A stretch of 37,702 nucleotides of DNA from a virus. The notes below the pieces were generated by a model, which saw only the letters and a list, made by a program, of their open reading frames with translations, was not told the origin of the DNA and did not search any database. The stretch covers positions 1-37,702 of IMG/VR virus record IMGVR_UViG_3300009098_000015; one strand, 5' to 3'. Position 1 is the stretch's first letter, and every line of letters begins with the position of its first letter. This document shows, piece after piece, positions 3,080 to 37,580 of the stretch. Position numbers and translations under genes: made by a program.

Positions 3080-3106
3080 TAAAAAAGCCCTGAATAAATC
3101 AGGGCT
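3080..3106 (-). terminator. Rho-independent terminator
   Basis: On the minus strand AGCCCTGA pairs with TCAGGGCT around a 5-nt loop (TTTAT) and is followed by TTTTTT. It lies downstream of the 73-aa gene and upstream of the 25-aa/endolysin pair. Confidence 0.88.
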
Positions 3107-3140
3107 CTCTACCCAGCTGACCAACGCGCTATTGGCCTTT
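3086..3140 (-). other. tRNA 5'-half-like segment merged with the terminator
   Basis: Read on the minus strand, TTGGTCAGCTGGGTAGAG resembles a tRNA D-arm, and the terminator hairpin right after it can be drawn as a 5-bp anticodon stem CCCTG/CAGGG with a 7-nt loop ATTTATT (T at position 33, anticodon TTA). No variable loop, T-arm or 3' acceptor strand follows; instead a T-run does. The D-stem pairs imperfectly. It could be a decayed tRNA whose anticodon arm became a terminator, or a chance likeness. Confidence 0.25.
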
Positions 3141-3172
3141 CTTTCATTCGGTGAATTGGGTGCTCGAATATC

Positions 3173-3394
3173 TTAATCCGGTAATTGCTTTTTGGCTGAA
3201 ATGAGTTTGCTGATTAAAGCGTTTAATTGTTCCTTATCATTTATGTAATAAAACACATTCCAAAGTTCAGAATTTTCATTATTCTCACTTTGTAATTGAA
3301 AGACAAGCGAACTTTTATTATCATCGTCCATGTTTGGCTGAACCGAAACCTCTAAAACATTATCGAGGTCATCTTTTAAGGTTAGTGCTATCAT
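3173..3394 (-). CDS. Hypothetical protein, 73 aa, stand-alone transcription unit
   Basis: Begins MIALTLKDDL; acidic, Asn/Ser-rich, probably alpha/beta, family unknown. A longer frame reaches back to a TTG at 3466 or an ATG at 3451, but a promoter (-7 box at 3435-3443) overlies that extension, so the ATG at 3394 with its A-rich leader (AGCTAATAAA) is preferred. With that promoter upstream and a strong terminator at 3080-3106, the gene forms a complete one-gene transcription unit inside the lysis region, the arrangement expected of a moron. Confidence 0.6.
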   Translation of the reverse strand: MIALTLKDDLDNVLEVSVQPNMDDDNKSSLVFQLQSENNENSELWNVFYYINDKEQLNALISKLISAKKQLPD

Positions 3395-3434
3395 TTTATT
3401 AGCTTTTAATATACATTCGGCTGAATTACCGAAC

Positions 3435-3467
3435 CAAAATATACCACCCATCCCCGACAAAAGCAAA
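3435..3467 (-). promoter_or_regulatory. Bacteroidota-type promoter
   Basis: On the minus strand TTTG (3464-3467) is followed after exactly 20 nt by TATATTTTG (3435-3443), one insertion away from TAnnTTTG. Transcription would begin near 3430 and leave a leader of about 35 nt before the ATG at 3394. Confidence 0.5.
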
Positions 3468-3492: not shown

Positions 3493-3681
3493 TTAATTCG
3501 TCCCCCTGATATGCTCTTGCAACCGCTCTATCTTAGCGTCCTTCTTATCGCACTCGGCCTGTAGGCGCTTGACCTCTTCCTCATTACGGTCTGCCTTTAT
3601 GATATATCTTATAGCGTAGAAAAAACCGCCTATAAAAGCTAAAATAACGGCTATTAAAGCTATCCAGTTTGCGGTATCCAT
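3493..3681 (-). CDS. Single-TM protein with coiled coil, spanin/holin-like
   Basis: 62 aa: an N-terminal membrane helix (about residues 6-28, WIALIAVILAFIGGFFYAIRYII) followed by a charged helix with heptad character (NEEEVKRLQAECDKKDAKIERLQEHI). An N-terminal anchor plus coiled coil is the layout of i-spanins and some holins. The start overlaps the stop of the receiver-domain gene (TAATG). No outer-membrane partner with a convincing lipobox was found, so the spanin reading is tentative. Confidence 0.65.
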   Translation of the reverse strand: MDTANWIALIAVILAFIGGFFYAIRYIIKADRNEEEVKRLQAECDKKDAKIERLQEHIRGTN

Positions 3682-4097
3682 TACTCATGCGACATAGCCA
3701 TTTTCTTATCCAGCATTTTTGGCACTGTAAGTTCGACAATTTCTCTCAGATTTTCAGGCCATTCGGGTTCGTTCTTGTCTGCTATACCCCAAACGTGACA
3801 TTCATTGATGAGCCTTTTATAAATTCGCGTATCAAAGTAGCCCGATACGACTATCATATAAATTCCTGAGTATTTCTTCTTGATGCTTATGACGGTATCA
3901 AAAACGTTATAGTCAGTTATGCCAATATCGGTTATAACCATGTAAACATCGTCGTTCAATGCATTAATAAACTCATCAGGATCGTAAAATGTTTTTACGC
4001 TAAAGGTGTCTGATTTACTCAATACGCGCTCCATTACCCGTAGGTCATCGATATTGTCATCGAGTATATGGATTAAGATTTGGATTTTGGAGGTCAT
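3681..4097 (-). CDS. Stand-alone response-regulator receiver (REC/CheY-like) domain
   Basis: 138 aa with the full REC active site: acidic pair D13-D14 (HILDDNIDD), phosphoacceptor D57 (VYMVITDIG), S85 in the T/S position (MIVVSGYF) and K108 (GIADKNEPEW). No output domain follows; the C-terminus ends about 20 residues after the REC fold. Such proteins normally take a phosphoryl group from a histidine kinase and act through protein-protein contact, as CheY or Spo0F do. No kinase is present here, so a host kinase or phosphotransfer protein would be the partner. The gene overlaps both neighbours (ATGA with the upstream TM/coiled-coil gene, TAATG with the downstream one), so it is an integral part of this small-membrane-protein operon. 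Phage recruitment of a REC domain is uncommon. Confidence 0.87.
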   Translation of the reverse strand: MTSKIQILIHILDDNIDDLRVMERVLSKSDTFSVKTFYDPDEFINALNDDVYMVITDIGITDYNVFDTVISIKKKYSGIYMIVVSGYFDTRIYKRLINECHVWGIADKNEPEWPENLREIVELTVPKMLDKKMAMSHE

Positions 4098-4444
4098 TTC
4101 TTCAATTCGATCATAACCCTATCAAACCGACTATTCATGTCTTTTTTATCTTCTTCCCGGTATTTAAATAAGGTTGATATATCATCCTTGATACCACCGA
4201 GTGTGCTATTCAATGTAGCGGTGACAGTTGCGATCACAACCTTTTCAATAAACTCTTGCTTCTCTTGCTTTTGTGCTAATTGGTAAGCATCACGTTCAGC
4301 CGCTTTGTCCTTAAACCATTTGTTGGTAAATCCTAAGAATGCTATTAAAATACCAATTACAGTTACAATCCATGTTCCGATCGTTGTCCAGTTGATAGGT
4401 TCCGGTATAGGTGGTGTCATTCTGATAATTTTTGAATATTGCAT
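4094..4444 (-). CDS. Single-TM protein with C-terminal coiled coil
   Basis: 116 aa, or 108 aa from the second Met (MTPPIPEPINW), which may be the true start. A membrane helix at about residues 22-40 (IGTWIVTVIGILIAFLGF) is followed by a long charged helical region (KAAERDAYQLAQKQEKQEFIEK) and a C-terminal helix ending IELKK. This is a typical phage holin/spanin-like architecture but not diagnostic. It overlaps the REC gene by ATGA. Confidence 0.65.
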   Translation of the reverse strand: MQYSKIIRMTPPIPEPINWTTIGTWIVTVIGILIAFLGFTNKWFKDKAAERDAYQLAQKQEKQEFIEKVVIATVTATLNSTLGGIKDDISTLFKYREEDKKDMNSRFDRVMIELKK

Positions 4445-4504: not shown

Positions 4505-4882
4505 TCAATCAGGGTCACCCATTACTTTATACTTCCACTCGTTAAAAAATATAGTAGTAGTTACGAATAAAACTGTTCCGTCATAGGCGTAGAACATATG
4601 CATCGGGTATTTAGTGTTAAAAAACTCTGTAATTGTTAAAATTATAAATAAATAGTTGACCAGTATAGAGATAAAAATCAATAGATTGAAATTCCTGTGA
4701 TGCTCATTAATAAAGCCACACTTCCAATCTAGTAACACAAACAACGCTGCACCGAATGTTAGCCAATTATAAAACAACTTGCCAAAATACGGCGTCCATA
4801 CAAGGAACTGGAATATATAAACATCAAAAAGCCCGACATATAATATCAGGGCTATGATTGTTATGGCAATTCTGATTTGCAT
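4505..4882 (-). CDS. Four-helix integral membrane protein, 125 aa
   Basis: Four hydrophobic segments at about residues 4-25, 38-52, 65-85 and 98-112, joined by short loops, the first loop aromatic-rich. No family recognised. Position in the lysis/tail-end region makes a holin or superinfection-exclusion role possible; neither is shown by sequence. The start lies one base after the stop of the upstream Cys-rich gene, so the two are coupled. Confidence 0.65.
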   Translation of the reverse strand: MQIRIAITIIALILYVGLFDVYIFQFLVWTPYFGKLFYNWLTFGAALFVLLDWKCGFINEHHRNFNLLIFISILVNYLFIILTITEFFNTKYPMHMFYAYDGTVLFVTTTIFFNEWKYKVMGDPD

Positions 4883-4883
4883 G

Positions 4884-5078
4884 TTAAGCTGGCCTACCTA
4901 AATCCAAAACACAATCCCCCGTGGTCGTGTTGCAGACATAGTGAGGTGGGCAGCCGGTTGTCTTGCAGGTGCCACCGCTGGCCGGGCTAACATGTCCATG
5001 AATAACCTCAATAATCGCCTCCGGTCCGTACAGTTCGATTAAATCATCAAAGTGTAGTTGTAATTCTGATTTTTCCAT
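4884..5078 (-). CDS. Small four-cysteine protein, 64 aa
   Basis: The N-terminal half is an acidic helix (MEKSELQLHFDDLIELYGPE). The C-terminal half has four Cys at 38, 43, 49 and 56 in GGTCKTTGCPPHYVCNTTTG, suggesting two disulphides or one metal site. There is no signal peptide. The leader-plus-Cys-core plan superficially recalls ribosomally made peptides, but no maturation enzyme is nearby. Family unknown. It follows the gene at 5091 by 12 nt. Confidence 0.6.
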   Translation of the reverse strand: MEKSELQLHFDDLIELYGPEAIIEVIHGHVSPASGGTCKTTGCPPHYVCNTTTGDCVLDLGRPA

Positions 5079-5447: not shown

Positions 5448-5455
5448 TATCTTTG
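5448..5455 (+). promoter_or_regulatory. Consensus -7 box TATCTTTG
   Basis: An exact TAnnTTTG match 21 nt before the methyltransferase ATG at 5477. No clear TTTG lies 19-21 nt upstream. It shows that the in-frame TTG at 5453, inside this box, is unlikely to be the start codon. Confidence 0.5.
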
Positions 5456-5458
5456 GGT

Positions 5459-5471
5459 AAACAACCACGAA
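5459..5471 (+). repeat. Left 13-bp inverted repeat bracketing the methyltransferase module
   Basis: AAACAACCACGAA here is exactly complementary to TTCGTGGTTGTTT at 6080-6092. It lies between the -7 box and the methyltransferase start codon. Confidence 0.6.
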
Positions 5472-5476
5472 AAGAA

Positions 5477-5881
5477 ATGAAAGATAGAAATCTTGATCAT
5501 TCCGATCACTGGGCAACACCGCCGCACATTTACAATGAACTTAACGAAGAATTTAATTTTGATTTTGACCACTGTCCATTAAGATCTCAATTTGATGGAT
5601 TGGCTATTGAATGGGGTGGTTCAAACTTTATTAATCCACCTTATTCAAGAAAACTTAAAGAAGCCTTTATTATAAAGGCTATTGATGAAAGTAAAAAAGG
5701 TAAACTATGCGTAATACTATTGCCTGTATCTACTTCAACTAAAATATTTCATGATTATATCTTGCCTAATAAAAAAGAAATAAGGTTTTTACGGGGTCGG
5801 GTGAAGTTTTTGGGGATAACAACTAAGGGTGAAAAATCAATAGGTGCAGGAATGCACGATAGTATGATTGTAATATTTTAA
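5477..5881 (+). CDS. Phage DNA N6-adenine methyltransferase (Dam-like)
   Basis: 134 aa from ATG 5477. The opening HSDHWATPPHIYNELNEEFNFDFDHCP is the N-terminal signature of small phage DNA adenine methylases, and SNFINPPYS carries the catalytic [DNS]PPY motif as NPPY. Later VILLPVSTSTKIFHDYIL and IRFLRGRVKF complete the family pattern. It should transfer methyl from SAM to the N6 of adenine and may protect phage DNA from host restriction. No partner restriction enzyme is seen. It lies on the opposite strand to the tail genes on both sides, with its own promoter box and a terminator at 6110-6134. The next gene starts 3 nt after its stop. Confidence 0.9.
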   Translation: MKDRNLDHSDHWATPPHIYNELNEEFNFDFDHCPLRSQFDGLAIEWGGSNFINPPYSRKLKEAFIIKAIDESKKGKLCVILLPVSTSTKIFHDYILPNKKEIRFLRGRVKFLGITTKGEKSIGAGMHDSMIVIF

Positions 5882-18944: not shown

Positions 18945-19856
18945 TTATTTATTTATCGTATTACATAGCCATGTATTAAAATCATTCAGCCTGCCTGCTG
19001 CGTTATACTCGGCGGATCGTTTAAAACATAATTGTCTTTGCTTCTCAAAGTCCAAATTGTGTATTGTATCTGCATAGGCTTGTGCCTTTCGTTCTGCGTA
19101 AATCCCGGCATAACTTAAATTCTCCCTTAATGGCTCAATATCCGAGCAAATTACCGGAATCCCCCTAACAATAGCCTCCGTAGCGACTTGACACCAACTT
19201 TCGAACTCAGATGGGCAAATGATTAACTTAATATCAGACCAATCCATGTTCGGCGAACTGTCCCGGTATTCCAAATTCGATCTATTGCCAATTATCTGCT
19301 CACCGTACATGCCGCGTATGCCTAAAAATTGCTCATCAGGCATGAGCTCCGCAAGTTCAACCAATATACCACCCCCTTTGTTATAATTGCAGTTTATAAG
19401 GCATATTTTAAATCCTGAGATTACTGGCTGTTCAGGATATACCAATGGTTGTAAAACGGTTGATGAAAGGCATTTGAACAGGTGCTTATTGGCAAGAAAA
19501 TTAGAATTGTAAACAACATGGCTGTTTTCTACATAATAATGCTTGCTTGTATTATGGGCAAAAAATATAGATGGCTTCTTATGCTGCCGCGCCTTATTAT
19601 AACCGTATGCGTTGCCTATTAATTGGAAGAAAATTACGTCAGCCCATTGAAACGCTTCATTGTTTTCTTTGAATAGGTTTTCCATGCCACCCATTGACAT
19701 TATTTCAATCCCGTCATAAATACAGGCTTCGGTATGCGCAGCCACCTTGCAGTTATGCCCAAATGATTGCAACCCTTTCAAAAGCCGGTGCATATAAGTT
19801 TCACCGCCGGAATATTTATGCGGGAAGTAATTGTAGGTGGCGGCTATGATGTTCAA
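18945..19856 (-). CDS. Glycosyltransferase, GT4-like (GT-B fold)
   Basis: 303 aa, short for the family. N-terminal Rossmann half begins MNIIAATYNYFPHKYSGGETYMHRLLKGLQSFGH, with the GGxExxxxxL donor-side pattern. The C-terminal half carries MDWSDIKLIICPSEFESWCQVATEAIVRGIPVICSD, the E-x7-E nucleotide-sugar site of GT4 enzymes. It should transfer a sugar from an NDP-sugar to an unknown acceptor. It overlaps the preceding 56-aa gene (ATGA) and precedes the head-tail connector gene, so it is expressed with virion genes. Confidence 0.85.
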   Translation of the reverse strand: MNIIAATYNYFPHKYSGGETYMHRLLKGLQSFGHNCKVAAHTEACIYDGIEIMSMGGMENLFKENNEAFQWADVIFFQLIGNAYGYNKARQHKKPSIFFAHNTSKHYYVENSHVVYNSNFLANKHLFKCLSSTVLQPLVYPEQPVISGFKICLINCNYNKGGGILVELAELMPDEQFLGIRGMYGEQIIGNRSNLEYRDSSPNMDWSDIKLIICPSEFESWCQVATEAIVRGIPVICSDIEPLRENLSYAGIYAERKAQAYADTIHNLDFEKQRQLCFKRSAEYNAAGRLNDFNTWLCNTINK

Positions 19857-20023
19857 AATATAAAAGCTTTAACGGCGGCTTCCAATTTAATATCATTGAC
19901 TGTCTTTAGTTGTGATATTTGCTCTCTGTTTTCGGCCGGTAAATCCGATTTTAATAATTGAACGCAGTGATTTTTGGTATCCTGCAATTGGCGAATATTC
20001 GCGTTATATCTGTCTTTAAACAT
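19853..20023 (-). CDS. Small helical protein, 56 aa
   Basis: From ATG 20023: MFKDRYNANIRQLQDTKNHC, then a charged helical stretch (ENREQISQLKTVNDIKLEAAVKAFIF). Its start overlaps the end of the three-domain glycosyltransferase by 8 nt and its stop overlaps the GT4 start by ATGA. It may be a coiled-coil partner of one of the enzymes. No family recognised. Confidence 0.55.
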   Translation of the reverse strand: MFKDRYNANIRQLQDTKNHCVQLLKSDLPAENREQISQLKTVNDIKLEAAVKAFIF

Positions 20024-21917
20024 GGAGTATGTACGGTTTCGAATGTAAAAACTGTGTATACCCAAACCCGGCTTCGCCCCAAAGCCCCTTTCTTGAATAT
20101 AAATGAATCGGCATTTTTAAATCCATCTGCTCAAAAATATACAATAGGCTTGTGTTGGCTGAATGTATTTCCTCTGCCCTCTCAATAACCCCGCACCAAT
20201 CCAGTAAGGTAAATCCATCGATAGCCCGCATTTCAATGCAAGGCAAATCATTGGTTATTACCGGTTCGATCTGAAACTGTCCCTGTGCGCCATATAAGCG
20301 ATTGACAAAGTTATAGGCACCCGATACCCCAACTATCTGCCATAATGCATCCTCTGACTTTAAATCGCGTTCCCATGTCAAATTTCTAAACATCTTCCAT
20401 GAATGTCCGTACATCTCATACTTTGAGGTCATACACCTGTCAAGCCTGCGCCCCATATTCTCGCTTGCGAACCTATATGGCAGCCATTGACCGTATGGCG
20501 TATCATGCCTATCCCGCCGTTCGTAATTAATATCGATTTGAGTCTTGTCAACAAAATTCAGGTCGAAAAAGTGCTTATCCAAACTAACATATTCAGCATT
20601 AACAGGCCAAAGACAAATATTACCCTCTGCCTGCAATGCACGAACCATAGGAATGAGCCAAAGTATATCGCCCAAACTGGCAAATTGACCTATGACGTAT
20701 TTATCCCGCTTGACGTGCTGAATCGTTCTTCGTGGATTAGCGCCATGTACGCCAAACTGGTCTGTCAGTATTTTATTCGGCTGATTATATCCTTCAAATG
20801 CAAATCGTTCAGCAACATCGTCGGATGCGAACCTGATACCATGTTTTGTTTCAAGATAACGGCGGTATATACGGCATATTTGGTGATCTTCCGGGTGGAA
20901 TTGAGTTATCTCCGGGTCTGTAGCTAATATTTCCATAAGGCGCTTAGAGCGCAATGAAAAACCACCGTTACCTACATTAAGGCCATCCTTGTACCACCAC
21001 GGTGCGCCGATATAATCATATTGCAACCAATCATTGTTCCATGATTTCCAGTTATTCACAAATCCGTCATGCTGAAATACCAATACATGCGATGTTGGTA
21101 TGTGCTTGTACATCTCATAGATACATAGCCTCGAATATTCCTCTTTACTTCGGATGTCAGGATGTAATAAACTGATATGCCCGAAGTTGATTTGTTCGGT
21201 GCATTTTTTTAATGGCTCTTGTATGCGCTGCGGGTTGTTATCAATACATAGCAAAGTCACATCGGGCAAGTCCCAAAATTTAAAGTCGTCAGCAACATCC
21301 GGATAGTCATGGTGTCCTAAACTACTTTCGATACCTATGTGCTGAACAACTGATTGCTTGAGGCAGTAAGCCCCGTCCGATTTAAGGCAGGCGACGTGGT
21401 CCCAATTTGACGGCTCTTGCAACGCGGGTTTGATATATCTCTCATAAGCGACACGGTCAACGCAAAAATTGATTCCACCGACTGATTGTTTTTTGTACAT
21501 AGTATCGGTTTCTTCGATTATTTTGTGCCTGCCCATTGTGGTGCAGTGGAAGCCGGTTAGTAAAGTACCGGGGATGTAGTGCTTGATAAGTTCGGTTACA
21601 GCGTTTGGTTTGATTAGAGTATCGGAGTCGAAGTTGATGATGTGTGTGAAACCCTGAGCGAATAATGCGTCATATCCAGATAAAAGTGTTTTCTTGACTC
21701 CGATATTATTATCATTGGTTCGCATCCGAATAGTTTGAATATTTTCGTTTTTCCTGAAATAATCATTAAGCAATTGACTTACTGCCAAATCGGTACTCCT
21801 GTCGTTTATGATTAATATCTGATGCGTCTCGGGTATCTGCAGCCTTTCCAACGACCAAAGACATTCTTTTAGATAATTCGGGCGGTTAAATACCGGAACT
21901 AATATCCCTATTTTCAT
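20016..21917 (-). CDS. Three-domain glycosyltransferase: GT2 + DUF5672 + GT9-like
   Basis: 633 aa. Residues 1-215 are a GT2 (GT-A) domain: MKIGILVPVFNRPNYLKECLWSLERL, IINDRSTD and the DxD-type FDSD at 96-99. Residues about 219-392 match DUF5672: VTLLCIDNNPQRIQEPLKKCTEQINFG, HVLVFQHDGFV, YDYIGAPWW, VGNGGFSLRS (315-324) and HPEDHQICR. Residues about 406-633 look like a GT-B, heptosyltransferase (GT9)-type domain: VIGQFASLGDILWLIPMVRALQAEG and EEIHSANTSLLYIFEQMDLKMPIHLY. The fusion could add successive sugars to one acceptor. It overlaps the GT31-like gene upstream by ATGA. I do not know this exact domain order from a characterised enzyme. Confidence 0.82.
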   Translation of the reverse strand: MKIGILVPVFNRPNYLKECLWSLERLQIPETHQILIINDRSTDLAVSQLLNDYFRKNENIQTIRMRTNDNNIGVKKTLLSGYDALFAQGFTHIINFDSDTLIKPNAVTELIKHYIPGTLLTGFHCTTMGRHKIIEETDTMYKKQSVGGINFCVDRVAYERYIKPALQEPSNWDHVACLKSDGAYCLKQSVVQHIGIESSLGHHDYPDVADDFKFWDLPDVTLLCIDNNPQRIQEPLKKCTEQINFGHISLLHPDIRSKEEYSRLCIYEMYKHIPTSHVLVFQHDGFVNNWKSWNNDWLQYDYIGAPWWYKDGLNVGNGGFSLRSKRLMEILATDPEITQFHPEDHQICRIYRRYLETKHGIRFASDDVAERFAFEGYNQPNKILTDQFGVHGANPRRTIQHVKRDKYVIGQFASLGDILWLIPMVRALQAEGNICLWPVNAEYVSLDKHFFDLNFVDKTQIDINYERRDRHDTPYGQWLPYRFASENMGRRLDRCMTSKYEMYGHSWKMFRNLTWERDLKSEDALWQIVGVSGAYNFVNRLYGAQGQFQIEPVITNDLPCIEMRAIDGFTLLDWCGVIERAEEIHSANTSLLYIFEQMDLKMPIHLYSRKGLWGEAGFGYTQFLHSKPYILHV

Positions 21918-22555
21918 CCCCTTAAAATTAAATGTAATCTTTTCAAACTATCAATATCCCGTGTCCTGTCGCGAATATCATTACTCGTCTTTGCCCGGAA
22001 GTGCCATGAATCAAACCGCTCAAATCCGTTCAATCCCGCATCGATACGGATATTAACAGGCGTTGGTTCAATGCGGCCCTGCAATAATTGGCCTATCAAA
22101 ACATCCTCCGCTCCGTGTTCGGCTTCGGTTAATTCATCCCGCAATATATCCAAAACATCAGGTGAAAAAAAGATGCCAGCGCCGGAAATATAAGGCAATG
22201 CGCCGACATTATCAGGCCATCCATTCAGCCAACCTGCATAACATTTGGTTTTCGGCAGATTATAGGCTTCTTTGATAAGTCCGTCTTTCAGGATATAGGA
22301 GCATGAATTGGTTCGGAAGATAAAATCATATTCTTTATAATCTATCGCATCCAAAGCCAGTTTGAATTTCCAATGCATCATTTCGTATTTGTCGGAACAA
22401 TCGACAGATAATTCATTACCGAGCCATCCTTTGTTGCCGCCGTAATAGTAGACAACGTCAACGTCGTTATGCGGCACATCTGTTAGTTGCTGCAATTGCA
22501 TGAATTTATCGAAAGGCCATTCGGTGTAGGAAAGGACGAGGATTAGGATTTTCAT
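21914..22555 (-). CDS. GT31/fringe-like glycosyltransferase
   Basis: 213 aa. MKILILVLSYTEWPF, a middle DYKEYDFIFRTNSCSYI (in place of the usual DDD-type acceptor strand), YISGAGIFFSPDVLDIL and AEHGAEDVLIGQLL; the last two correspond to the 'sGaGy..s.d' and 'EDV..G' motifs of galactosyl- and fringe-type transferases. The metal-binding DxD is not obvious (RTNS at that place), so the donor site may be altered. ATGA overlaps at both ends tie it to the 57-aa protein and the large fusion. Confidence 0.7.
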   Translation of the reverse strand: MKILILVLSYTEWPFDKFMQLQQLTDVPHNDVDVVYYYGGNKGWLGNELSVDCSDKYEMMHWKFKLALDAIDYKEYDFIFRTNSCSYILKDGLIKEAYNLPKTKCYAGWLNGWPDNVGALPYISGAGIFFSPDVLDILRDELTEAEHGAEDVLIGQLLQGRIEPTPVNIRIDAGLNGFERFDSWHFRAKTSNDIRDRTRDIDSLKRLHLILRG

Positions 22556-22725
22556 AGATTTCTACATTCAACAAGTGATATGATTTCATTTATTGATAAT
22601 AGCAGCCATTTAAGAGTTCCGGTGTACCCGTCTCTGGTTAATTGAAGATTAAAAAATTCTTCTTTATTTGTTGATTTAAGAACCCCGTTTTTAACAAGTA
22701 TTTCTAAAATTTCTTTTTCTTCCAT
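22552..22725 (-). CDS. Small protein, 57 aa
   Basis: MEEKEILEILVKNGVLKSTN, followed by a short mixed segment (LTRDGYTGTLKWLLLSINEIISLVE). Start at 22725 is 3 nt after the SDR stop; its stop overlaps the GT31-like start (ATGA). Helical, slightly acidic, no known family. Overlap with the downstream enzyme supports translation. Confidence 0.6.
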   Translation of the reverse strand: MEEKEILEILVKNGVLKSTNKEEFFNLQLTRDGYTGTLKWLLLSINEIISLVECRNL

Positions 22726-22728
22726 GAT

Positions 22729-23517
22729 CTATAATTTTAACATCCTCATAATCCCCTCCTCAAACCCAATGCATCCCGGTATCCCCGGACTTGCCACGCT
22801 ATATTGCATATCGGTTTTTGAAGGTGGAAGTTTCATTATTTCAAGCCTGCGACCCTTAACCCGCTCGATAACAGCAATAGCCTCCATTATCGTCATGCCC
22901 TTACCCGTACCAACATCGACTAATCCCGGAGGTGAGTCTAAATTATCAATGATCGCCCGAACAGCATCGTCAATGTAAATAAAATCCCGTACCTGCTGGC
23001 CGCCGTTGATAATAAGCCTGTCTTTCTCTAAAGCGGCCTTAACTATACCCTTGTTATTGCCATGCCCGTAGATGTTGAAGAACCTTAGCCCAGTCGCGTT
23101 CTTGCCGATTGCAAGATGCTCAATATAGCGTTTAGTATAAGCATAAGGATTAGTCAGTTCTGCCGCGCTGGTGCTGCTTGCGTATATAATCCGCGTCGGT
23201 ATGCTCATTATCTGCTTCGTGTAAACGATATTGCTATCGAATAGTTCAGGGATAAACGAATCGGACGTAGTGGTTACGGCGGCAAGGTGGATGATGTAAT
23301 CGGGAATAGTTTCGGGTAATTCGTTATAACCTCCGCATATCACATTATAATCTGATAGCTTCGGCAATAAATGCCTGCCAATAAAACCGTTCGCCCCGGG
23401 CATAAATATTGTTTTTTTATCGTTCAATTTAACTCCTGTTTTTAAATTCTCCGACCAGTATAGTGTTTCATCAGGTGGGATGTCTTTTAGTTCGGTGGAT
23501 GGGGGTAGGGTGTTCAT
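22729..23517 (-). CDS. NAD-dependent epimerase/dehydratase (extended SDR)
   Basis: 262 aa. NAD-binding GANGFIG at 41-47, then HLAAVTTTSDSF (equivalent to the HLAA strand), catalytic Ser in IYASSTSAAE (114-116) and the YxxxK pair Y125/K129 in NPYAYTKRYIEH. The later VRDFIYIDDAVRAI and VDVGTGKGMTIMEAI match sugar-nucleotide epimerases and dehydratases of the UDP-glucose 4-epimerase group. It is a little short (usual length ~310). It probably converts an NDP-sugar used by the neighbouring transferases. Substrate cannot be read from sequence. Confidence 0.86.
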   Translation of the reverse strand: MNTLPPSTELKDIPPDETLYWSENLKTGVKLNDKKTIFMPGANGFIGRHLLPKLSDYNVICGGYNELPETIPDYIIHLAAVTTTSDSFIPELFDSNIVYTKQIMSIPTRIIYASSTSAAELTNPYAYTKRYIEHLAIGKNATGLRFFNIYGHGNNKGIVKAALEKDRLIINGGQQVRDFIYIDDAVRAIIDNLDSPPGLVDVGTGKGMTIMEAIAVIERVKGRRLEIMKLPPSKTDMQYSVASPGIPGCIGFEEGIMRMLKL

Positions 23518-23520
23518 TTA

Positions 23521-24192
23521 TCAGACAAGGCGCTTTTTAGTTATGATATAACCAGGGCCGCTTTTTATATACTCAACCTCAATCATTTGGCCAATTGTTT
23601 TTAAAATTGCTTTAAAATAATTCTTCGTTATCTCAACATCTGTTGGTATACTCGCCAAAATTGAGTTCCAATAATTTTCGCCTGTTTGAATCAGTTCCTC
23701 CTTCTCGCACACCACCACAAAACTATGATTAAAGTCACACCCACTTACCCAAACCTTATGCCCAAGTTCGGACAGATAACCGCCGATTTCGCTACCGTCA
23801 AATGAATGAAGATGCTTCCTGTTATTCTTCGGATGCCAGTACTCCTGCGATTTGTGAGGCAGGTATAAAAACAAAATTCCGCCGACTTTAATCTTCGTCA
23901 TCCAGTAATCAAGCACATTGTAAACATTCTCTTTGATGTGCTCCAAACAATGGCTGCTAAACAAATACTCAAACTGCCCGTTTGGCAATCGCATAGCATC
24001 ATACGTCGGATCGATAGACGGCTCAATGCCGATAGCTCCGGGTAGCATCCATTTCTCTTTGGAATATCCCACATCGAGGCCAACACCGATACAATAGTGC
24101 TGCGCTAACTGGCGTATCCATAATGATGCGCCTCCTATGGCCTCATGGGAAGGGTATTCAACACCGTTAAACTTTATAAATTCGAGTGGCAT
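23521..24192 (-). CDS. SAM-dependent methyltransferase (class I)
   Basis: 223 aa. Motif I is GVGLDVGYSK (36-45), the acidic ribose-binding residue is E57 in IGIEPS, and motif post-II/III reads FEYLFSSHCLEHIKE, followed by VGGILFLYLPHKS. This is the Methyltransf_11 pattern. In a sugar-gene cluster it may O-methylate a sugar, finishing or capping a glycan, but a protein or small-molecule substrate is possible. It sits 3 nt before the SDR gene. Confidence 0.86.
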   Translation of the reverse strand: MPLEFIKFNGVEYPSHEAIGGASLWIRQLAQHYCIGVGLDVGYSKEKWMLPGAIGIEPSIDPTYDAMRLPNGQFEYLFSSHCLEHIKENVYNVLDYWMTKIKVGGILFLYLPHKSQEYWHPKNNRKHLHSFDGSEIGGYLSELGHKVWVSGCDFNHSFVVVCEKEELIQTGENYWNSILASIPTDVEITKNYFKAILKTIGQMIEVEYIKSGPGYIITKKRLV

Positions 24193-26760: not shown

Positions 26761-27543
26761 TTAGTTAATTGTAAAAGACGTGAAAACTGATTTCTGACTA
26801 TTGATCGCCAATCCTGCAAAGAGAGAAACCGGCTTTGCTTCTTCTTGAGTGCCCTTCGGCGGCTCTGCTTCCACAAGTGATTTTTTACCCAATTCGTATA
26901 GTTGCGAACCGTATTGTTTTACCGCTATTTCAAGCAGTGCAAATGTTTCATCTGTCAATGTGCCATTTCTGAGCAACTTCATCATGATGCCTACCTGATC
27001 GTTTATCTGTTGTGGTGTCAATGATTTGAAGCCGGTAAATGGGGTTTGGTCATTTGCGCCCAATGTCACACATGACCCTTCATATAATTTTATCTCACTT
27101 ATCTCCCTGTAGGTATCCCATTCGTAGGTAGCATCATCCTTCACAACATTGCTCCACTTCATAGCGACATAGCCGATAGAGTTTTGTATGACCAAGCCGC
27201 TGCCCATCAACTCTAAAGCATCTTTGCCGTAGCTTGTTTTATCGTTCACCGGCGTTTCGTGGTACAAACCCTGTGCTCTTTCCTCTAACAGAGTCGGCTT
27301 GCCTAATGGTTGCGCCCAATTATGTTGGTTAAGAAAAAAGATTTCATTTGTTCCAATCGGGCCGCGTTCGGCTATGGTTTTTGCAAATGCTCCGGGCTTG
27401 ATAATATCGTCGTCGTAATCAAGATTATTAAATGCAGACCAGTACCCGGTGACAATCCCGTTCTTGGTATCAATGTCGCCGACCTGCATTGTCATTGATT
27501 TGAATTGCATTAATCCGTATGGGGTATCTTCTTTTTGTTGCAT
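26761..27543 (-). CDS. HK97-family prohead protease
   Basis: 260 aa from ATG 27543 (MQQKEDTPYGLMQFKS); the frame extends upstream to 27648, but that part overlaps the operator and HTH gene and lacks family character. Signature GYWSAFNNLDYDDDIIKPGAFAKTI (33-57), then H74 in FFLNQHNW and S122 in LVIQNSIGYVAMKW as the likely catalytic His/Ser. It cleaves the capsid delta domain during maturation. The C-terminal ~90 residues are a variable extension. Confidence 0.92.
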   Translation of the reverse strand: MQQKEDTPYGLMQFKSMTMQVGDIDTKNGIVTGYWSAFNNLDYDDDIIKPGAFAKTIAERGPIGTNEIFFLNQHNWAQPLGKPTLLEERAQGLYHETPVNDKTSYGKDALELMGSGLVIQNSIGYVAMKWSNVVKDDATYEWDTYREISEIKLYEGSCVTLGANDQTPFTGFKSLTPQQINDQVGIMMKLLRNGTLTDETFALLEIAVKQYGSQLYELGKKSLVEAEPPKGTQEEAKPVSLFAGLAINSQKSVFTSFTIN

Positions 27544-27591
27544 TATGGGTATAAAAATATAGTATAAAAAAATAACTTTAGGATTTTTTGG

Positions 27592-27613
27592 TATACAGAA
27601 ACGTTTCTGTATA
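27592..27613. promoter_or_regulatory. 22-bp perfect palindrome, operator for the HTH gene
   Basis: Each 11-nt arm reads TATACAGAAAC, giving a gapless perfect inverted repeat. It ends 8 nt before the HTH start codon (27622) and 49 nt upstream of the divergent protease start (27543). Size, symmetry and place are those of a dimeric repressor site, most simply for the adjacent HTH protein itself. Confidence 0.75.
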
Positions 27614-27621
27614 TTAGCGGG

Positions 27622-27846
27622 ATGACAGCAACTGAACTTTTCGACCACATTACATCAGAATCAAAATGGTATGCCGGGTACACCACACCGCAACATGCCA
27701 ATCTTTTGAAAAAACGGTTTAAGGCCGGTACACTTGAATTTCAGACGCTTACCAAATTGTTCAATCACTTTGGGTATTACCTTTATGCGGATTGGATATT
27801 TCAAGGTGACAAACCGAAACCGGTTGAACTTGTGGAACGCGCATAG
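27622..27846 (+). CDS. Small HTH transcriptional regulator (Cro/C1-like)
   Basis: 74 aa. WYAGYTTPQHANLLKKRFKAGTLEFQTLTKLFNHFGYYL has the helix-turn-helix layout of small XRE-type proteins: a helix (PQHANLLKKRFKAG) then a recognition-like helix (EFQTLTKLFNHFG). The C-terminus ends with a short Pro/Glu tail. It is probably a dimeric autorepressor acting at the 22-bp palindrome immediately upstream. It is on the plus strand, opposite to the head genes around it, and precedes the secreted beta-helix gene. Confidence 0.78.
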   Translation: MTATELFDHITSESKWYAGYTTPQHANLLKKRFKAGTLEFQTLTKLFNHFGYYLYADWIFQGDKPKPVELVERA

Positions 27847-27874
27847 GGTAGTACTTATGCTGGTTTTAAGATAA

Positions 27875-27965
27875 AAAATAACAAGGCACCTATGCTCGAC
27901 CACAGAGATAGCGCGTAAAAGCCAAAATAGGAACAGATGGACGCATTTGTTAGCCTTGTTATTTT
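27875..27965 (+). repeat. 13-bp inverted repeat with 65-nt insert (structured RNA or operator)
   Basis: AAAATAACAAGGC (27875-27887) is the exact reverse complement of GCCTTGTTATTTT (27953-27965). The insert contains a possible inner pair CCTAT (27889-27893)/ATAGG. The right arm is followed by ATTTTA, so an RNA copy would form a long-loop hairpin with a U-rich tail, which could terminate the HTH transcript. The right arm also lies within the spacer of the beta-helix promoter. Confidence 0.55.
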
Positions 27966-27977
27966 ATTTTACCTTTA
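27946..27977 (+). promoter_or_regulatory. Promoter of the secreted beta-helix gene
   Basis: TTTG (27946-27949), exactly 20 nt, then TACCTTTA (27970-27977), close to TTTG-N20-TAnnTTTG. The ATG follows after only 3 nt, so the transcript would be leaderless or nearly so. Confidence 0.5.
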
Positions 27978-27980
27978 GGC

Positions 27981-30053
27981 ATGAAAAGAACATGCTTAAC
28001 CCTAATTATCAGCCTGCTATCTTTGGCTTGCATGGCAGACGACACCGCTGCTATCCAGTTGGCTTTAAACTCCAGCAACTACACGCTGCCAGTAAAACCC
28101 GGCGGTTACTTCATTTCATCGACTATTACAGTTCGCCATAACTTTAACCTGAATGGCCAAACGGTAACCTATACCGCTTTAACCCAACGGGCTTTATTGA
28201 TACCGGTTATCAATACGCATATAACAATCAGCAATGGCACGTTAATTGGCACGAGCAATGCATCGAACCCGAACGGTAATATTGGTATTGATTATGAAGG
28301 GGATTACTCAACTATTGACCATTTAACAATAAGTAATTTTACGGCCTATGCGATACTGGCAAACAACGCAAACCATCCGACAATAACTAATAACACGATA
28401 ACGCGCATAGGTTATATCGCCATAAGTTTAATATCAAGCGCCCCGATTACCGGCGGATTGATCTATAATAATACGATTGACAGAACCGATCAGTTACCAG
28501 CTTCGATATCGCAGGCTGCTTTTATTCTTCGCGGCGCAGTTGGTGACACTTCATCAAACTGGATTATACGAAAAAACACAATCAATATGCCGCTAAGCCC
28601 CTCCGCTATTGCTGCTGAATGCTTTGAGGGTAGGTATGTTAAAAACGTCCTGATTGACAGCAATACTTTTAATGGAAGTTCGATTGCAAACTCTATTGTT
28701 CGCTCTGCCTTTGTAGTTTCAAGGCATAATACTTACTTAAAGCAATCTCATGAGGCTTTAGAGTTCGCCGACACAAGAAATTCAAGGGCTGATTTTGAAA
28801 CTATTGGTAATCAGTACGCAAAGGGTATATTTATTGATGGATTTTCCGCTTATGGTGGCGATAATACAGATAGCGTAACTAACTGCACAATTACAACCAC
28901 GGCGGATAATTCCATCGAAGCCAATGGGGTTGTTGCAAATATTTATATAGCGAACAACACTTTATCAACCCGTAATGTCGGCATAAGGCTACAAAAAGCA
29001 AATAACTTTACGATACAGAACAATACCATGACCGGCAATGGCGTGGGTACAAATGCGATCTATTTGGATAATTCAACCGGCAACGTGTCGTTGGCCTGCG
29101 GCGCGATGACTGGATTTATCAATAAGCCGTTACATATCTACGGCTCTACGCCAATTGTAACGGCAAATGTATCCTTGACCAATTTTAGTTCAACTACTAC
29201 CGGCTACAGCACCTACCTGACTGGCGGTGCAACTGTTTCGGCTATTACCGTTACACCTGTTCCAATGCCGACCGGCTGTACCTCCGGATCTGCACCAATC
29301 ATAACTTATGCGAATCAGTCATTTACGGCATTAACAACTATTAGCCCGGTTAATCCGACTAATACAGGTGGAACACCATCAGGTTACAGTATAAGTCCAG
29401 CATTACCAAGCGGGCTATCATTCAATACGACCACGGGTGTGATAACCGGTACGCCAACGCCATATCAAACGGCGGTTATATACACCGTAATAGCAAGCAA
29501 CCTAATCGGTGCTGATACAACTACATTTACAATTGCTATCGCAAACCCGGCGTTTACTTTCGGCTCATTGCCGACAAAAACATACGGGAATGCTGATTTT
29601 TCACCTGGGGCGACAAGTCCGGCAAGTATAGGTTATACAAGTTCAAATTTATCGGTAGCCGTCGTTACAGGCGGTCAAATACATATCGTCAATTCAGGTA
29701 GTTCAACTATAACGGCTGATAATGGCTATCAGACCATTCCGCAAACATTGACGGTGAATAAAGCGGTACTGACAATCACAGCTAATAATAAAGCTCGTCC
29801 TGTCGGGACAGCAAATCCGCTATTGACAGTTGCCTACTCAGGTTTTGTGAATAACGAGGATCACACCGTATTAACATCACAGCCGACCATCTCAACAACA
29901 GCAAATATTGGGTCACCTGTCGGGGCTTACCCCATAACGCCATCGGCCGCGACCGCGCCCAATTATAGTTTTGTGTATGTTGATGGTACGATGTATGTGT
30001 TTAATGATTTGGGGCCGCTGATATATAACGGAAAGTTAATAATTGCTTATTAA
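27981..30053 (+). CDS. Secreted right-handed beta-helix protein with He_PIG and MBG domains
   Basis: 690 aa. The N-terminal MKRTCLTLIISLLSLACMAD is an export signal; the Cys is not in a perfect lipobox, so signal peptidase I or II is open. Residues about 30-400 are a parallel beta-helix (pectate-lyase-like) with repeats such as TITNNTITRIGYIAISL, NVLIDSNTFNGSS and NFTIQNNTMTGNGVGTNAIYL. Residues about 435-515 match a He_PIG Ig-like domain (ALPSGLSFNTTTGVITGTP), and about 595-675 an MBG domain (LTITANNKARPVGTANP). It may bind or cut polysaccharide at the host surface, altering phage adsorption. The catalytic residues of a depolymerase cannot be assigned. Its stop overlaps that of the convergent head gene by 4 nt. 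Confidence 0.83.
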   Translation: MKRTCLTLIISLLSLACMADDTAAIQLALNSSNYTLPVKPGGYFISSTITVRHNFNLNGQTVTYTALTQRALLIPVINTHITISNGTLIGTSNASNPNGNIGIDYEGDYSTIDHLTISNFTAYAILANNANHPTITNNTITRIGYIAISLISSAPITGGLIYNNTIDRTDQLPASISQAAFILRGAVGDTSSNWIIRKNTINMPLSPSAIAAECFEGRYVKNVLIDSNTFNGSSIANSIVRSAFVVSRHNTYLKQSHEALEFADTRNSRADFETIGNQYAKGIFIDGFSAYGGDNTDSVTNCTITTTADNSIEANGVVANIYIANNTLSTRNVGIRLQKANNFTIQNNTMTGNGVGTNAIYLDNSTGNVSLACGAMTGFINKPLHIYGSTPIVTANVSLTNFSSTTTGYSTYLTGGATVSAITVTPVPMPTGCTSGSAPIITYANQSFTALTTISPVNPTNTGGTPSGYSISPALPSGLSFNTTTGVITGTPTPYQTAVIYTVIASNLIGADTTTFTIAIANPAFTFGSLPTKTYGNADFSPGATSPASIGYTSSNLSVAVVTGGQIHIVNSGSSTITADNGYQTIPQTLTVNKAVLTITANNKARPVGTANPLLTVAYSGFVNNEDHTVLTSQPTISTTANIGSPVGAYPITPSAATAPNYSFVYVDGTMYVFNDLGPLIYNGKLIIAY

Positions 30054-30853
30054 ACTGCTTTTAATATCGGCAATCCGCTTGCAGAAAGTATAGGAACGTA
30101 AATCGTAGTACATCTACAATTAATTACTTCATTTGCTGGTAATGACATATCTCCAGGATACATACATTGATAACCACCTACTATGAAATAATCGGTGTTT
30201 TCTACCTGCTGACCGTTCGCGTCCACATGATTAGGCCGCGTGTTATTATCAAGTATTGATAACCATTGCTTTGCAGTGAGGTAATCTGCATCTTCGTTTC
30301 CTAAAGCCGCCCCGCAATTAGCCGCAGTAGTTGTTTCCGTTCTGCTTATCATCATAGCCCTGTAGCGTGTAAATCCGTCAGAGCCTAAAGTATCTTCCAA
30401 ATAGGTGGCTTGCTCCGATAGTGTCATGTCGGCGCTGTCTGATAAGGCCTTTCTTATCTTTTCACGAGTGGTTTCTGTTACATCTGAAACTCGCTGAGCA
30501 GCATGGTCTGTAAAGAAAGCTTGCATAAGCCTTGACCACTTCTCGCTAAAAAACGACATGATGCCCTTTTGAGAGCGTCCAACGCTGTTTATCCAGCGCC
30601 GGGTATATGCGGCCTGCCTAACGCCAATTTTTAAATACAGGTCACGATAGGCGGTTTCTACAGGTTGTTTTGAGACGAGATAATCAGCAAGTTCCGGCGT
30701 GATGCTGCCATATCGTTTGATATGGTTCAAAACCGGCGCTACCTGTGCCTTTAATGCAGTTCTGAATAGCTTAAATCCATATCGCTCATAGCCACCATGC
30801 AACTTTCGCCATTGTAACTCAAATTCTGCTATATTGATATTTACGGTATTCAC
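30050..30853 (-). CDS. Minor head protein, SPP1 gp7 / Mu F-like
   Basis: 267 aa. C-terminal signature: MMISRTETTTAANCGAALGNED, AKQWLSILDNNTRPNHVDANGQ and a final PGDMSLPANEVINCRCTTIYV, the hallmark 'RTE….W.t..D.rtR..H…G…F.vGG…PgD…a.e..nCRC' pattern of phage head morphogenesis proteins. The N-terminal ~150 residues are helical. It follows the portal gene with an ATGA overlap. It likely sits inside the head and is ejected with DNA. Confidence 0.9.
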   Translation of the reverse strand: MNTVNINIAEFELQWRKLHGGYERYGFKLFRTALKAQVAPVLNHIKRYGSITPELADYLVSKQPVETAYRDLYLKIGVRQAAYTRRWINSVGRSQKGIMSFFSEKWSRLMQAFFTDHAAQRVSDVTETTREKIRKALSDSADMTLSEQATYLEDTLGSDGFTRYRAMMISRTETTTAANCGAALGNEDADYLTAKQWLSILDNNTRPNHVDANGQQVENTDYFIVGGYQCMYPGDMSLPANEVINCRCTTIYVPILSASGLPILKAV

Positions 30854-32256
30854 ATGCCCAGCCCTGCACCGGCTGTAATAGTCGAATCTGTCAATTGTAT
30901 GTCTTCCAATAATTGATAGGTTTTTTTGACGAGTAACTTATCAGCCATCGGATCAAGTATTTTACCAAAACCCTGGAATTCGCGCTTCTCATTGTATGTA
31001 AGATGATCCATTGCGTTCAATGCCTGTGCCGTCTTTAGGAAATCATCGGCCAGTTCAGGCAACACGGAATAATCAAACATCCACATTAACCGCTCTCCTG
31101 GTTTTTCGTATTGAGGGCATGTATCGCGGGTCAGTTTATCGGTTATCAGGTTGCCCAATGTCATTACCGGGTTGTAGATGAACTGCTTCATGTGGGCATC
31201 TACGTTATTGTCAGTAGATGCGCTCATATCGTTCAATAATGTAATTGGAACCTGATATGCATTAGCTATATCTACCCTGTCAAACCGAAGCGATTCAATA
31301 ATCTGCAAATCGGCTGACGGTAACCCGAACTGTGTCCATTTTGCCGGTGCCCCAGATACGAAAATTCGTTTAACCAAATCATATCCGTTCTTTGCTTCGG
31401 ATATCTGCTGCTTAATATCATTCTTTACCTTCGGATCGCTAATAGGCGGAACTCCCGGTGCAGCCTCCGGGGATAACATGCCATATACGCCGCCGTTCTT
31501 CATTTGTTTGTTCTGTTCAATCCTTGCATCTTTGTTTTTTACAAGCGTCATTATCTGCGCACGTAATGGTGATTGCCCGTATAGCTGGCTGCCGTAGGTG
31601 GTAAACTCAGGATTGAATGTCTTGAAATGGCTCACCGCATCGCCTGGGAAGTCAGGTATTTCCATCGTATAATTGCGCGAATTATACACGTTGTACCCCT
31701 TTACTGGCTTTAGTTCACCGCCTGATATGATGTGAATATATGGGGATGGCAATACATACATTTGCGTCCATTTCCGCGACTTTGGCAACCCTACATAGTA
31801 GTTATAGCTATTACCTGTAAGCAGGTAAAATCCGGCCAATTGTTTTAACCATTCTGTTGTGGTTTGGTATGGATTCGGCTTTTGTATCAGGTCATTAAGC
31901 TGCGCAATATACGTTTCCTGTATGCCTTTAATTTGGATTCGATAAAACTCAGCTTTCACCATATCGGATTGACGCAGAACTTTATATTTCTGCGCTTGCT
32001 GAATTTTATCCTCTTTAATGGAGTATAATATCAGCGGACAGTAAGATAGCTTGCTTAAAATTCTGTCAATACAGGTATAAACATCGCCGTTGCCCTGGTA
32101 GCCATTTTGTACGTAATTTAGTGGATTGTCATTGAAATAGATAGGTTGATTGTCGCCTATCCACCGGAACATATTCTCATTATAAAGCCCCACAGCGGCG
32201 AGGGTATTAACCACGTCTTTCTTAGTAAATAAGCCCAGCCTGTTCAATATGTCCAT
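30850..32256 (-). CDS. Portal protein, HK97 family
   Basis: 468 aa. Family features: VYTCIDRILSKLSYCPLILY near the N-terminus, LIQKPNPYQTTTEWLKQLAGFYLLTGNSYNYYVG, DAVSHFKTFNPEFTTYGSQLYGQSPL and LRFDRVDIANAYQVPITLLNDMSASTDNNVDAHMKQFIYNPVMTLGNLITDKLTRD, the standard phage_portal series. It forms the dodecameric ring through which DNA is packaged and ejected. Lies between the large terminase and the minor head gene. Confidence 0.92.
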   Translation of the reverse strand: MDILNRLGLFTKKDVVNTLAAVGLYNENMFRWIGDNQPIYFNDNPLNYVQNGYQGNGDVYTCIDRILSKLSYCPLILYSIKEDKIQQAQKYKVLRQSDMVKAEFYRIQIKGIQETYIAQLNDLIQKPNPYQTTTEWLKQLAGFYLLTGNSYNYYVGLPKSRKWTQMYVLPSPYIHIISGGELKPVKGYNVYNSRNYTMEIPDFPGDAVSHFKTFNPEFTTYGSQLYGQSPLRAQIMTLVKNKDARIEQNKQMKNGGVYGMLSPEAAPGVPPISDPKVKNDIKQQISEAKNGYDLVKRIFVSGAPAKWTQFGLPSADLQIIESLRFDRVDIANAYQVPITLLNDMSASTDNNVDAHMKQFIYNPVMTLGNLITDKLTRDTCPQYEKPGERLMWMFDYSVLPELADDFLKTAQALNAMDHLTYNEKREFQGFGKILDPMADKLLVKKTYQLLEDIQLTDSTITAGAGLGM

Positions 32257-32296
32257 TGGCTAACAAATATATTGTTTTATTATTGATTTGCAAATG

Positions 32297-33586
32297 TTAC
32301 CATTTATATCCGATTTCTTCTTCCTCGTCTGGAATATTTGGTGGGATGTATTTTCTAATGGTTTCTTCGGAATCTCCCCATCCTGAGTTTGACCAATTGA
32401 ATTGGTTAGCTGATAATTGATTTTGAATAGCGTACCGTGCCGCGTCTAAAAGGTGGTTAAACATATCTATTGGCGTGCCTGATTTTTTGTCATTCCATGC
32501 ATAGTTATTCAATTCCTTAATTAAATTTATACTATCTGGATCAATTATCAGATGATAATCCTGCATAATCGCAATACCGGCTGATATGCTGCCGGGGCCT
32601 TTTACAGCTTCGATTATATTTAAACCCTTTGATTGTATTTCGGTTATTAGTCTTGGCTCTGCACTATCGGCTACGATTAAACTATCACCTGCATGATATT
32701 TATCGCGCTCAGCTATATCAGATGTAGTTAGCCGCTGTTCATAAAAACACTCCTTTAGGAAAATTCGCTTTGTGGATGAATGGATAGATGTTTTTATTAA
32801 AGTAGACGGATCGACGCTAAAGCCAAAATCCTGCCCAAATACCGGCACAGAGTGTTCTTCAAAATCACCTATTGACCAATTGGTATAAATAACACCTTCG
32901 GCCTTATCGAGCCATCCGCCCAATATTACATGCTTATATTTTACTGGATTTTTAAATTCAAGTTCTTTAACCTCTTGCACAAAAGAAGGGTCAAGGTTTT
33001 TTTCATTATCCCTGTAATCGGAATGGATGTAAGTCACATTACCTTTTACGCCATTCCATCCCGGTTCAATACCGGCTTCCTCAAAGTACTTTTTGTATAT
33101 CCAATGCTCTTTTGTGGCAGGGTTAAGTATAAGTATTACCCGGTTTTGTACACCTTTTTGCCTGATTGAGAAGTTTATCTTATCGAAAATCTTCTCGTCT
33201 GTCAACTCCTCGGCTTCGTCAATTATCCATGTCGTTACACCCTGTAATGATTTTAAATTAGCTGTTTGATCGCCTGATGACGTTTTAATACCCCTGAAAA
33301 TTATCTGGCTTCCTGATTTACGATTTACAACCTCTGTTTTATTTATATCGAAATGGTTTTCAAATCCCATTAAGTTTATCTTTTCCTCAAACTCCGGGAT
33401 GATTGATAAATGCGCCGATGTCATCGTACTGCGTGTAAACAGTATTTTATGTCCTACCTCGAACGATAATGCGCTGGCAAACGTACCTACGGCGAATGAT
33501 TTTGCTGATCCCCTACCGCCGGTTATGACGAAATAGCGGGTATTTGAAAGATATAATGGCTTATACTTCAGGTTTAGTAATATCAT
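32297..33586 (-). CDS. terL: Terminase large subunit (PBSX/Terminase_3 type)
   Basis: 429 aa. Walker A GGRGSAKS (23-30), Walker B WIIDEAEEL with D123-E124, and motif ILILNPATKEHWIYKKY. The RNase H-like nuclease half contains the three acidic positions: GQDFGFSVDP, LIVADSAEP and FNHLLDAARYAI. It drives ATP-dependent packaging and cuts the concatemer. It overlaps the small subunit gene by 26 nt. Confidence 0.95.
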   Translation of the reverse strand: MILLNLKYKPLYLSNTRYFVITGGRGSAKSFAVGTFASALSFEVGHKILFTRSTMTSAHLSIIPEFEEKINLMGFENHFDINKTEVVNRKSGSQIIFRGIKTSSGDQTANLKSLQGVTTWIIDEAEELTDEKIFDKINFSIRQKGVQNRVILILNPATKEHWIYKKYFEEAGIEPGWNGVKGNVTYIHSDYRDNEKNLDPSFVQEVKELEFKNPVKYKHVILGGWLDKAEGVIYTNWSIGDFEEHSVPVFGQDFGFSVDPSTLIKTSIHSSTKRIFLKECFYEQRLTTSDIAERDKYHAGDSLIVADSAEPRLITEIQSKGLNIIEAVKGPGSISAGIAIMQDYHLIIDPDSINLIKELNNYAWNDKKSGTPIDMFNHLLDAARYAIQNQLSANQFNWSNSGWGDSEETIRKYIPPNIPDEEEEIGYKW

Positions 33587-33875: not shown

Positions 33876-33906
33876 TTTATTATAATTTATTTATTTATAA
33901 TCAAAA

Positions 33907-36815: not shown

Positions 36816-36816
36816 G

Positions 36817-37098: not shown

Positions 37099-37229
37099 TT
37101 GATAAAGAAACCTGGCATATAAGGAAATGCTCAGGTTGTTAAATTATCAATAAATATCTTGCGGTAAATCTGCTCCTTATTTCAGATTACCAATCTCCTA
37201 ATCTACTATTTCCACCACACAAAAACAAA

Positions 37230-37424: not shown

Positions 37425-37428
37425 AAAA

Positions 37429-37556: not shown

Positions 37557-37580
37557 TATCGTAAAACAAATTAAAAACTT

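Follow-up and report, generated by a model that had tools for sequence, protein, structure and literature searches.

What is a stand-alone phospho-receiver doing in the lysis region of a phage? The question is raised by a small gene at positions 3681-4097 (minus strand) of IMGVR_UViG_3300009098_000015, a linear IMG/VR record of a tailed phage from soil, whose 37,702 nucleotides (37.7 kb) we refer to as the window. The structural genes of the window comprise terminase, portal, S78 protease, HK97-type capsid, major tail protein and tape measure. Positions 27300-37702 (10.4 kb) recur with 100% identity in IMGVR_UViG_3300025927_000137, a contig of a different sample that extends beyond position 37702; such identity in a second assembly that runs past the right end indicates a genuine phage whose genome the window covers incompletely. 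The portal gene resembles portals of Cellulophaga and Flavobacterium phages (29% identity or less) and the terminase matches contigs of Bacteroidota MAGs, and hence the host is likely a member of the Bacteroidota. Elsewhere in the window, positions 18945-24192 (minus) hold glycosyltransferase, NAD-dependent epimerase and methyltransferase genes between head and tail genes, resembling surface-sugar cargo. A gene at 27981-30053 (plus), opposite to the structural operon and flanked by protease and MuF genes, encodes an adhesin-like 690-aa protein, possibly also cargo, with an apparent signal peptide, a beta-helix, and Ig-like and MBG domains. A Dam-type adenine methylase gene (5453-5881, plus) lies on the opposite strand between tail-fibre genes and the lysis-region genes.

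The gene at 3681-4097 runs from an ATG start to a TAA stop and encodes 138 residues, nearly all of which are taken up by the receiver domain, leaving no output domain, as had been proposed in a preliminary description of this DNA. The active-site residues were also numbered correctly there: D13/D14, the phosphoacceptor D57, S85 and K108 align with the active site of other receivers. Pfam Response_reg (PF00072) covers residues 9-105 at 28.2 bits (E 2.2e-6) and so falls two bits short of the curated cut-off of 30.2 bits, which is a reporting threshold and not a biological feature; the protein would therefore escape automatic annotation. A profile built on Bacteroidota NtrC-type receivers scores 49.7 bits, and NCBIfam gives weak matches to FixJ and NtrC. 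The single-sequence AlphaFold2 model predicts the complete (beta-alpha)5 order with a mean pLDDT of 67; its best matches among PDB structures are receivers, with the NtrC1 receiver at the top by VIA-align (Z 13.1, rmsd 3.0, 130 aligned). The gene encodes a real but very divergent receiver, the fold being predicted. At the switch position, where receivers usually carry an aromatic residue, it has I105, and K108-N109 replaces the usual Lys-Pro pair. Retention of the canonical phosphoacceptor site despite such strong divergence suggests selection on that site. A PF00072 profile search found no second receiver elsewhere in the window, and no kinase families were seen among the scanned window proteins.

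Close relatives of this receiver were found neither in IMG/VR, nor among INPHARED phage records, nor in GTDB genomes and contigs. A PF00072 search that readily detects the window receiver returned none from 75 IMG/VR records, many of them fragments, comprising relatives by terminase or endolysin and a 75-kb phage contig, L002. Across 395 Bacteroidota genomes, the best matches scored about 20-33 bits and were NtrC-type receivers together with a few of the single-domain kind, the best NtrC-type match reaching 32.6 bits (33% identity over 84 residues). NtrC-type receivers top this hit list, yet a mixed profile of other receivers scores higher, at 69.7 bits, from a set partly selected for similarity to the window receiver; we therefore claim no subfamily. 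By its sequence it is a generic, divergent receiver that cannot be placed in any. One Bacteroidota single-domain family, L114, was considered as a home; it too lacks the Lys-Pro pair, but it scores just 39 bits. L114 and L134-L143 are Bacteroidota single-domain receivers of 131-183 residues, and several genomes have an NtrC-type receiver gene roughly 6 kb away. Many of the receiver-bearing 'phage' records in INPHARED look like host DNA (Salmonella, Acinetobacter and Listeria assemblies) and were left out. Two larger regulators were set aside, one in MW462191 (224 residues) and one in Stenotrophomonas phage Bhz63 (240 codons), whose gene precedes a kinase-like one.

The receiver gene is flanked on both sides by genes for small membrane proteins. 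Upstream it shares ATGA (4 nt) with a gene at 4094-4444 (minus) for a 116-residue membrane-tethered coiled-coil protein, its proposed partner, with a transmembrane (TM) segment at about residues 22-40 and a long helix, predicted to be cytoplasmic; residues 19-115 were modelled as a single long helix. Downstream it shares TAATG (1 nt) with a gene at 3493-3681 (minus) for a 62-residue protein with one TM segment, a short coiled coil and, judged by charge, its C-terminus inside. The overlaps with both genes, and the single clear TM segment plus coiled coil or long helix in both products, bear out what had first been reported. The accompanying idea that the receiver is locked to its neighbours by overlapping codons does not survive, as this is normal phage packing: of the window's 38 same-strand gene pairs, 11 overlap and six do so by 4 nt, and the overlaps of the receiver gene are not special. 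A role of the neighbours as putative spanins is unsupported. Both proteins have no K or R in the 12 residues before the TM segment and three in the 12 after it, which by the positive-inside rule alone places them N-out/C-in, with cytoplasmic C-termini, the reverse of the N-in/C-out topology of Rz-type i-spanins. The case for holins is weak, the best profile match over both neighbours having an E-value of 8e-5; the 4094-4444 product matches a PHROG holin family at E 1.4e-3 and Pfam holins at E 0.1-0.2. The two are better named, as far as their charge patterns and predicted helices tell, membrane-tethered cytoplasmic coiled-coil proteins.

Further upstream lie genes for a 125-residue multi-TM protein (4505-4882, minus), in the slot of a multi-TM gene in the Alteromonas phages XX1924 and PB15 described below, and a 64-residue Cys-containing protein (4884-5078, minus) with a weak homologue in L002 (E 0.003). 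Beyond the 62-residue protein, the next ORF (3173-3466, minus; 97 residues, TTG start) has no family match and is a doubtful gene. It is followed by a likely intrinsic terminator at 3081-3106 (minus; 8-pair stem, 5-nt loop and T run), recognized by eye and missed by a simple scan, which stands downstream of the receiver gene group. The GH19-like endolysin (2461-2994, minus; PHROG endolysin, E 3e-20) is thus about 690 bp from the receiver gene and behind this likely terminator. A 101-residue membrane protein (1538-1843, minus) without a family match is a possible holin by hydropathy alone. Positions 3107-3145 (minus) resemble the 5' half of a tRNA (AATAGCGCGTTGGTCAGCTGGGTAGAGAG) that runs straight into the terminator hairpin; ARAGORN calls no tRNA there, and the segment is possibly an attachment site or a tRNA remnant. 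Relatives of the 116-residue partner were absent from INPHARED, with one weak match (E 1e-4) in the 395 Bacteroidota genomes. L002 carries a homologue of it (60% identical) that follows similar small genes and precedes another TM/coiled-coil gene, with no receiver there, which makes the receiver an optional member of the gene group.

A structure search with the window receiver led to a 149-residue protein of Alteromonas phage V22, gp30, published as a CheY-like class II auxiliary metabolic gene (PMC7289586); gp11 of PT15-A5 (A5) has been published likewise (PMC10579305). Stand-alone receivers lie in the lysis region of A5 (Schitoviridae), V22 (a myovirus), H4/4 and R8W (Autographiviridae), XX1924, PB15, R9Y1 and R9Y2, and in all this placement is shared by about ten marine phages, whose groups are otherwise unrelated. 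In V22, a papain-like amidase gene is followed by those for a 125-residue coiled-coil protein, the receiver, an Rz-like i-spanin with an embedded o-spanin, and a two-TM protein; the Rz-like gene (PHROG E 7e-6) overlaps the receiver gene by 32 nt and its embedded ORF carries a lipobox. The A5 order is TM/coiled-coil protein, receiver, i-spanin (PHROG E 3e-8) with an embedded lipoprotein o-spanin, two-TM protein and annotated endolysin. V22 gp31 (L164:6168-6792) and A5 gp12 (L165:4410-5055), both annotated as hypothetical, resemble Rz i-spanins with embedded lipobox o-spanin ORFs, and holin-like two-TM proteins come after them. Two IMG/VR contigs, L170 and L171, have the V22/A5 gene order.

PB15 and XX1924 share a different surrounding, in which a multi-TM gene and an XhlA/hemolysin-like coiled-coil TM gene (PHROG E 2e-16 in PB15) precede the receiver gene. 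This is followed in PB15 by an M15 peptidase and a holin-like three-TM protein, and in XX1924 by DUF5675 and GTA_holin_3TM (Pfam); by eye, the two three-TM proteins are nearly the same. DUF5675 (L166:2438-2836) fills the slot of the PB15 M15 peptidase/endolysin (L167:4387-4743), a hint that DUF5675 is a lysis enzyme. The PB15 response regulator (L167:3992) has a probable ATG start 21 nt upstream of the annotated one, which reproduces the 4-nt overlap of the window. H4/4 and R8W have an annotated class II holin, a one-TM/coiled-coil protein, the receiver, a membrane protein and terminase, whereas R9Y1 and R9Y2 have a TM/coiled-coil protein, the receiver and a lysozyme (PHROG endolysin, E 2e-37). 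Phage V19 has the TM/coiled-coil and receiver pair only, and its receiver (L174:2998-3450) lacks the phosphoacceptor Asp, the Ser/Thr and the Lys; R9Y3 is known as a sequence match alone. The receiver gene overlaps the upstream membrane coiled-coil gene by 4 nt in seven genomes (the window, XX1924, PB15, H4/4, R8W, R9Y1 and R9Y2) and is separated from the upstream gene by 1-4 nt in four (V22, A5, L170 and L171). In the window, as in these phages, the receiver comes directly after a membrane-tethered coiled-coil gene; the product of the window gene has one TM segment and a helical C-terminal part. The early suggestion of a link with lysis thus gains from the recurrence of stand-alone receivers, in the same gene order, in the lysis regions of several unrelated phage groups. 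Its companion claim, that such an arrangement was not known to be described, stands for the lysis association only, given the existing CheY-like annotations (PMC7289586, PMC10579305). We found no literature that places phage receivers in lysis regions or pairs them with a membrane coiled-coil gene, in a search that covered few subscription papers; the words holin and spanin are absent from the A5 paper, which calls the functions of the receiver's neighbours unknown (PMC10579305).

Does this recurrence reflect one origin or several? The window receiver is 13-20% identical to those of the Alteromonas phages, and the window partner has no convincing similarity to theirs. In a tree built without gammaproteobacterial host receivers, and with Alteromonas cases collected by queries that began from one of them, the Alteromonas phage receivers form one group, which speaks against many independent events. 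The window receiver stands apart from the eight other phage receivers and falls with Bacteroidota receivers, both weakly. A single clade of all phage receivers is not rejected (p-AU 0.32), and we therefore do not propose convergence. A5 and V22 are known to have a transferred module in common (PMC10579305); together with the single receiver group, this indicates that the pattern in part reflects the spread of a single gene family among Alteromonas phages. Within these phages, the receiver occurs across phage groups along with its upstream partner type. The arrangement is most likely present in phages of two host phyla.

How might such a pair work? Tentatively, and as a possibility that falls somewhat short of even, we favour a two-gene module of the late/lysis operon in which the receiver does the signalling and its phosphorylation state would alter the membrane coiled-coil partner and hence the time of lysis. 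The partner, anchored in the membrane with its coiled-coil tail in the cytoplasm, would be translated together with the stand-alone receiver; the receiver, most likely phosphorylated at D57 by host histidine kinases or acetyl phosphate, would in one phosphorylation state bind the partner's cytoplasmic tail at the inner membrane. We infer that this binding would hasten or delay hole formation and so couple lysis time to the state of the host; alternatively, the membrane-anchored receiver module could act on host envelope signalling. The repeated order of membrane coiled-coil gene and then receiver in Alteromonas phages of several groups argues for a module. Against it stand the L002 partner homologue without a receiver, the distance and likely terminator before the window endolysin, the low receiver identities and dissimilar partners, and the single tree group of the Alteromonas cases. 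The altered switch residues of the window receiver (I105, K108-N109) and the lost site in V19 argue against a strict phospho-switch; as V19 keeps the same pair, phosphorylation is not required in every case. The broader version, in which phospho-receivers of several unrelated phage groups from two host phyla dock on a membrane-tethered coiled-coil lysis protein and gate hole formation, is rather doubtful.

Late-operon ends are a frequent site of cargo, and the receiver could be a host-derived gene for another host process (motility, surface or metabolism) with incidental lysis neighbours, which we regard as unlikely. Its absence from L002, which has the neighbouring gene, and from the 75 related viral records, many of which are fragmentary, would be expected of cargo, as would the published auxiliary metabolic assignments in V22 and A5 (PMC7289586, PMC10579305) and the transferred module common to these two (PMC10579305). 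In the Alteromonas phages, however, the receiver sits within the cassette rather than at its edge, overlapping spanin, endolysin or membrane genes, and each has the same partner type upstream. Distinctly unlikely, in our estimate, is a soluble phosphate sink or decoy that drains host histidine kinases and blunts a late host response such as envelope stress, the lysis region being an expression site only. The complete phosphoacceptor site, the missing output domain, the position in a late operon and the lack of a further receiver in the phage genome would all suit a sink, and the literature discusses single-domain receivers in this role. A sink leaves unexplained the membrane coiled-coil gene immediately upstream of the receiver in all carriers examined, and the V19 receiver has lost the phosphorylation site.

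That the receiver is a decaying or neutral passenger without a present role is improbable. No homologue was found that could reveal purifying selection, its switch residues are altered, and V19 exemplifies the decay of such genes; yet all five active-site residues are retained in a divergent protein with an intact frame, and the codon adaptation index of 0.73 is near that of other window genes (0.73-0.83). An enzyme of the cREC type is highly improbable. The cRECs, divergent receiver-like domains found in jumbo phages, have a predicted activity on cyclic phosphates, and the window gene shares with them a phage-borne receiver-like domain with two aspartates and no kinase gene. It has, however, every residue of the receiver set, Ser and Lys among them, and its closest sequence matches are ordinary receivers. 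Its neighbours are membrane, tail and lysis genes, among which the RNA-repair, NAD and ADP-ribose genes characteristic of cREC surroundings (PMC7824862, PMC9503650) were not found. PHROG 731 was discarded as a cREC marker since it matches 14 of 14 cellular control genomes and misses phage V5, a cREC carrier (PMC9503650).

Lysis timing is understood for a handful of model holins and antiholins. Phage CheY-like genes are already known, and those of Alteromonas phages annotated; their placement in the lysis region and their pairing with a partner appear to be new. Placement among the genes that burst the cell suggests a possible coupling, in some phages, between host signalling and the moment at which the cell lyses. 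If the two-gene module is real, a receiver in the lysis region would offer a plain route from host physiology to that moment, with host two-component signalling feeding directly into lysis timing, and genes filed as 'auxiliary metabolic' would be re-read as parts of lysis control. V22, PT15-A5, H4/4, PB15 and R9Y1 are all named isolates, each with a named Alteromonas strain as host.

Of the known systems, V22 gp30 and PT15-A5 gp11 are comparable in being stand-alone receivers with a complete active site, directly after a membrane/coiled-coil gene and among lysis and tail-end genes. They differ in their 18-20% identity to the window receiver, their marine gammaproteobacterial hosts and the downstream overlap with an Rz-like i-spanin bearing an embedded o-spanin, which is not seen in the window; neither paper connects the CheY-like gene with lysis (PMC7289586, PMC10579305). 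The regulators of XX1924, PB15, H4/4, R8W, R9Y1 and R9Y2, which have database annotation alone (some as 'hypothetical protein'), repeat the window's order of membrane coiled coil and then receiver with a 4-nt overlap; lysis-type genes lie beside their receiver genes, and XX1924 and PB15 also share the multi-TM gene further upstream. In PB15, XX1924, R9Y1 and R9Y2 a lysis-type enzyme gene comes directly after the receiver, whereas in the window the endolysin is separated from the receiver by a second TM/coiled-coil gene, a doubtful ORF and a likely terminator. Bacterial single-domain regulators of the CheY, Spo0F and DivK type and the Bacteroidota L114 and L134-L143 proteins agree with the window receiver in predicted fold, phosphoacceptor residues and lack of an output domain, L114 also in lacking Lys-Pro; their best identity to it is about 26-32%, and the window protein is phage-borne with I105 for the aromatic. 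Bacteroidota NtrC-type receivers provide many of its best sequence matches, and the NtrC1 receiver its closest structural one, but these are the N-termini of 450-490-residue proteins, whereas the window receiver stands alone and the match is generic. The jumbo-phage cREC domains are likewise phage-borne, receiver-like and without a kinase (PMC7824862, PMC9503650), but they occur in another neighbourhood, and the window receiver has the full receiver residue set.
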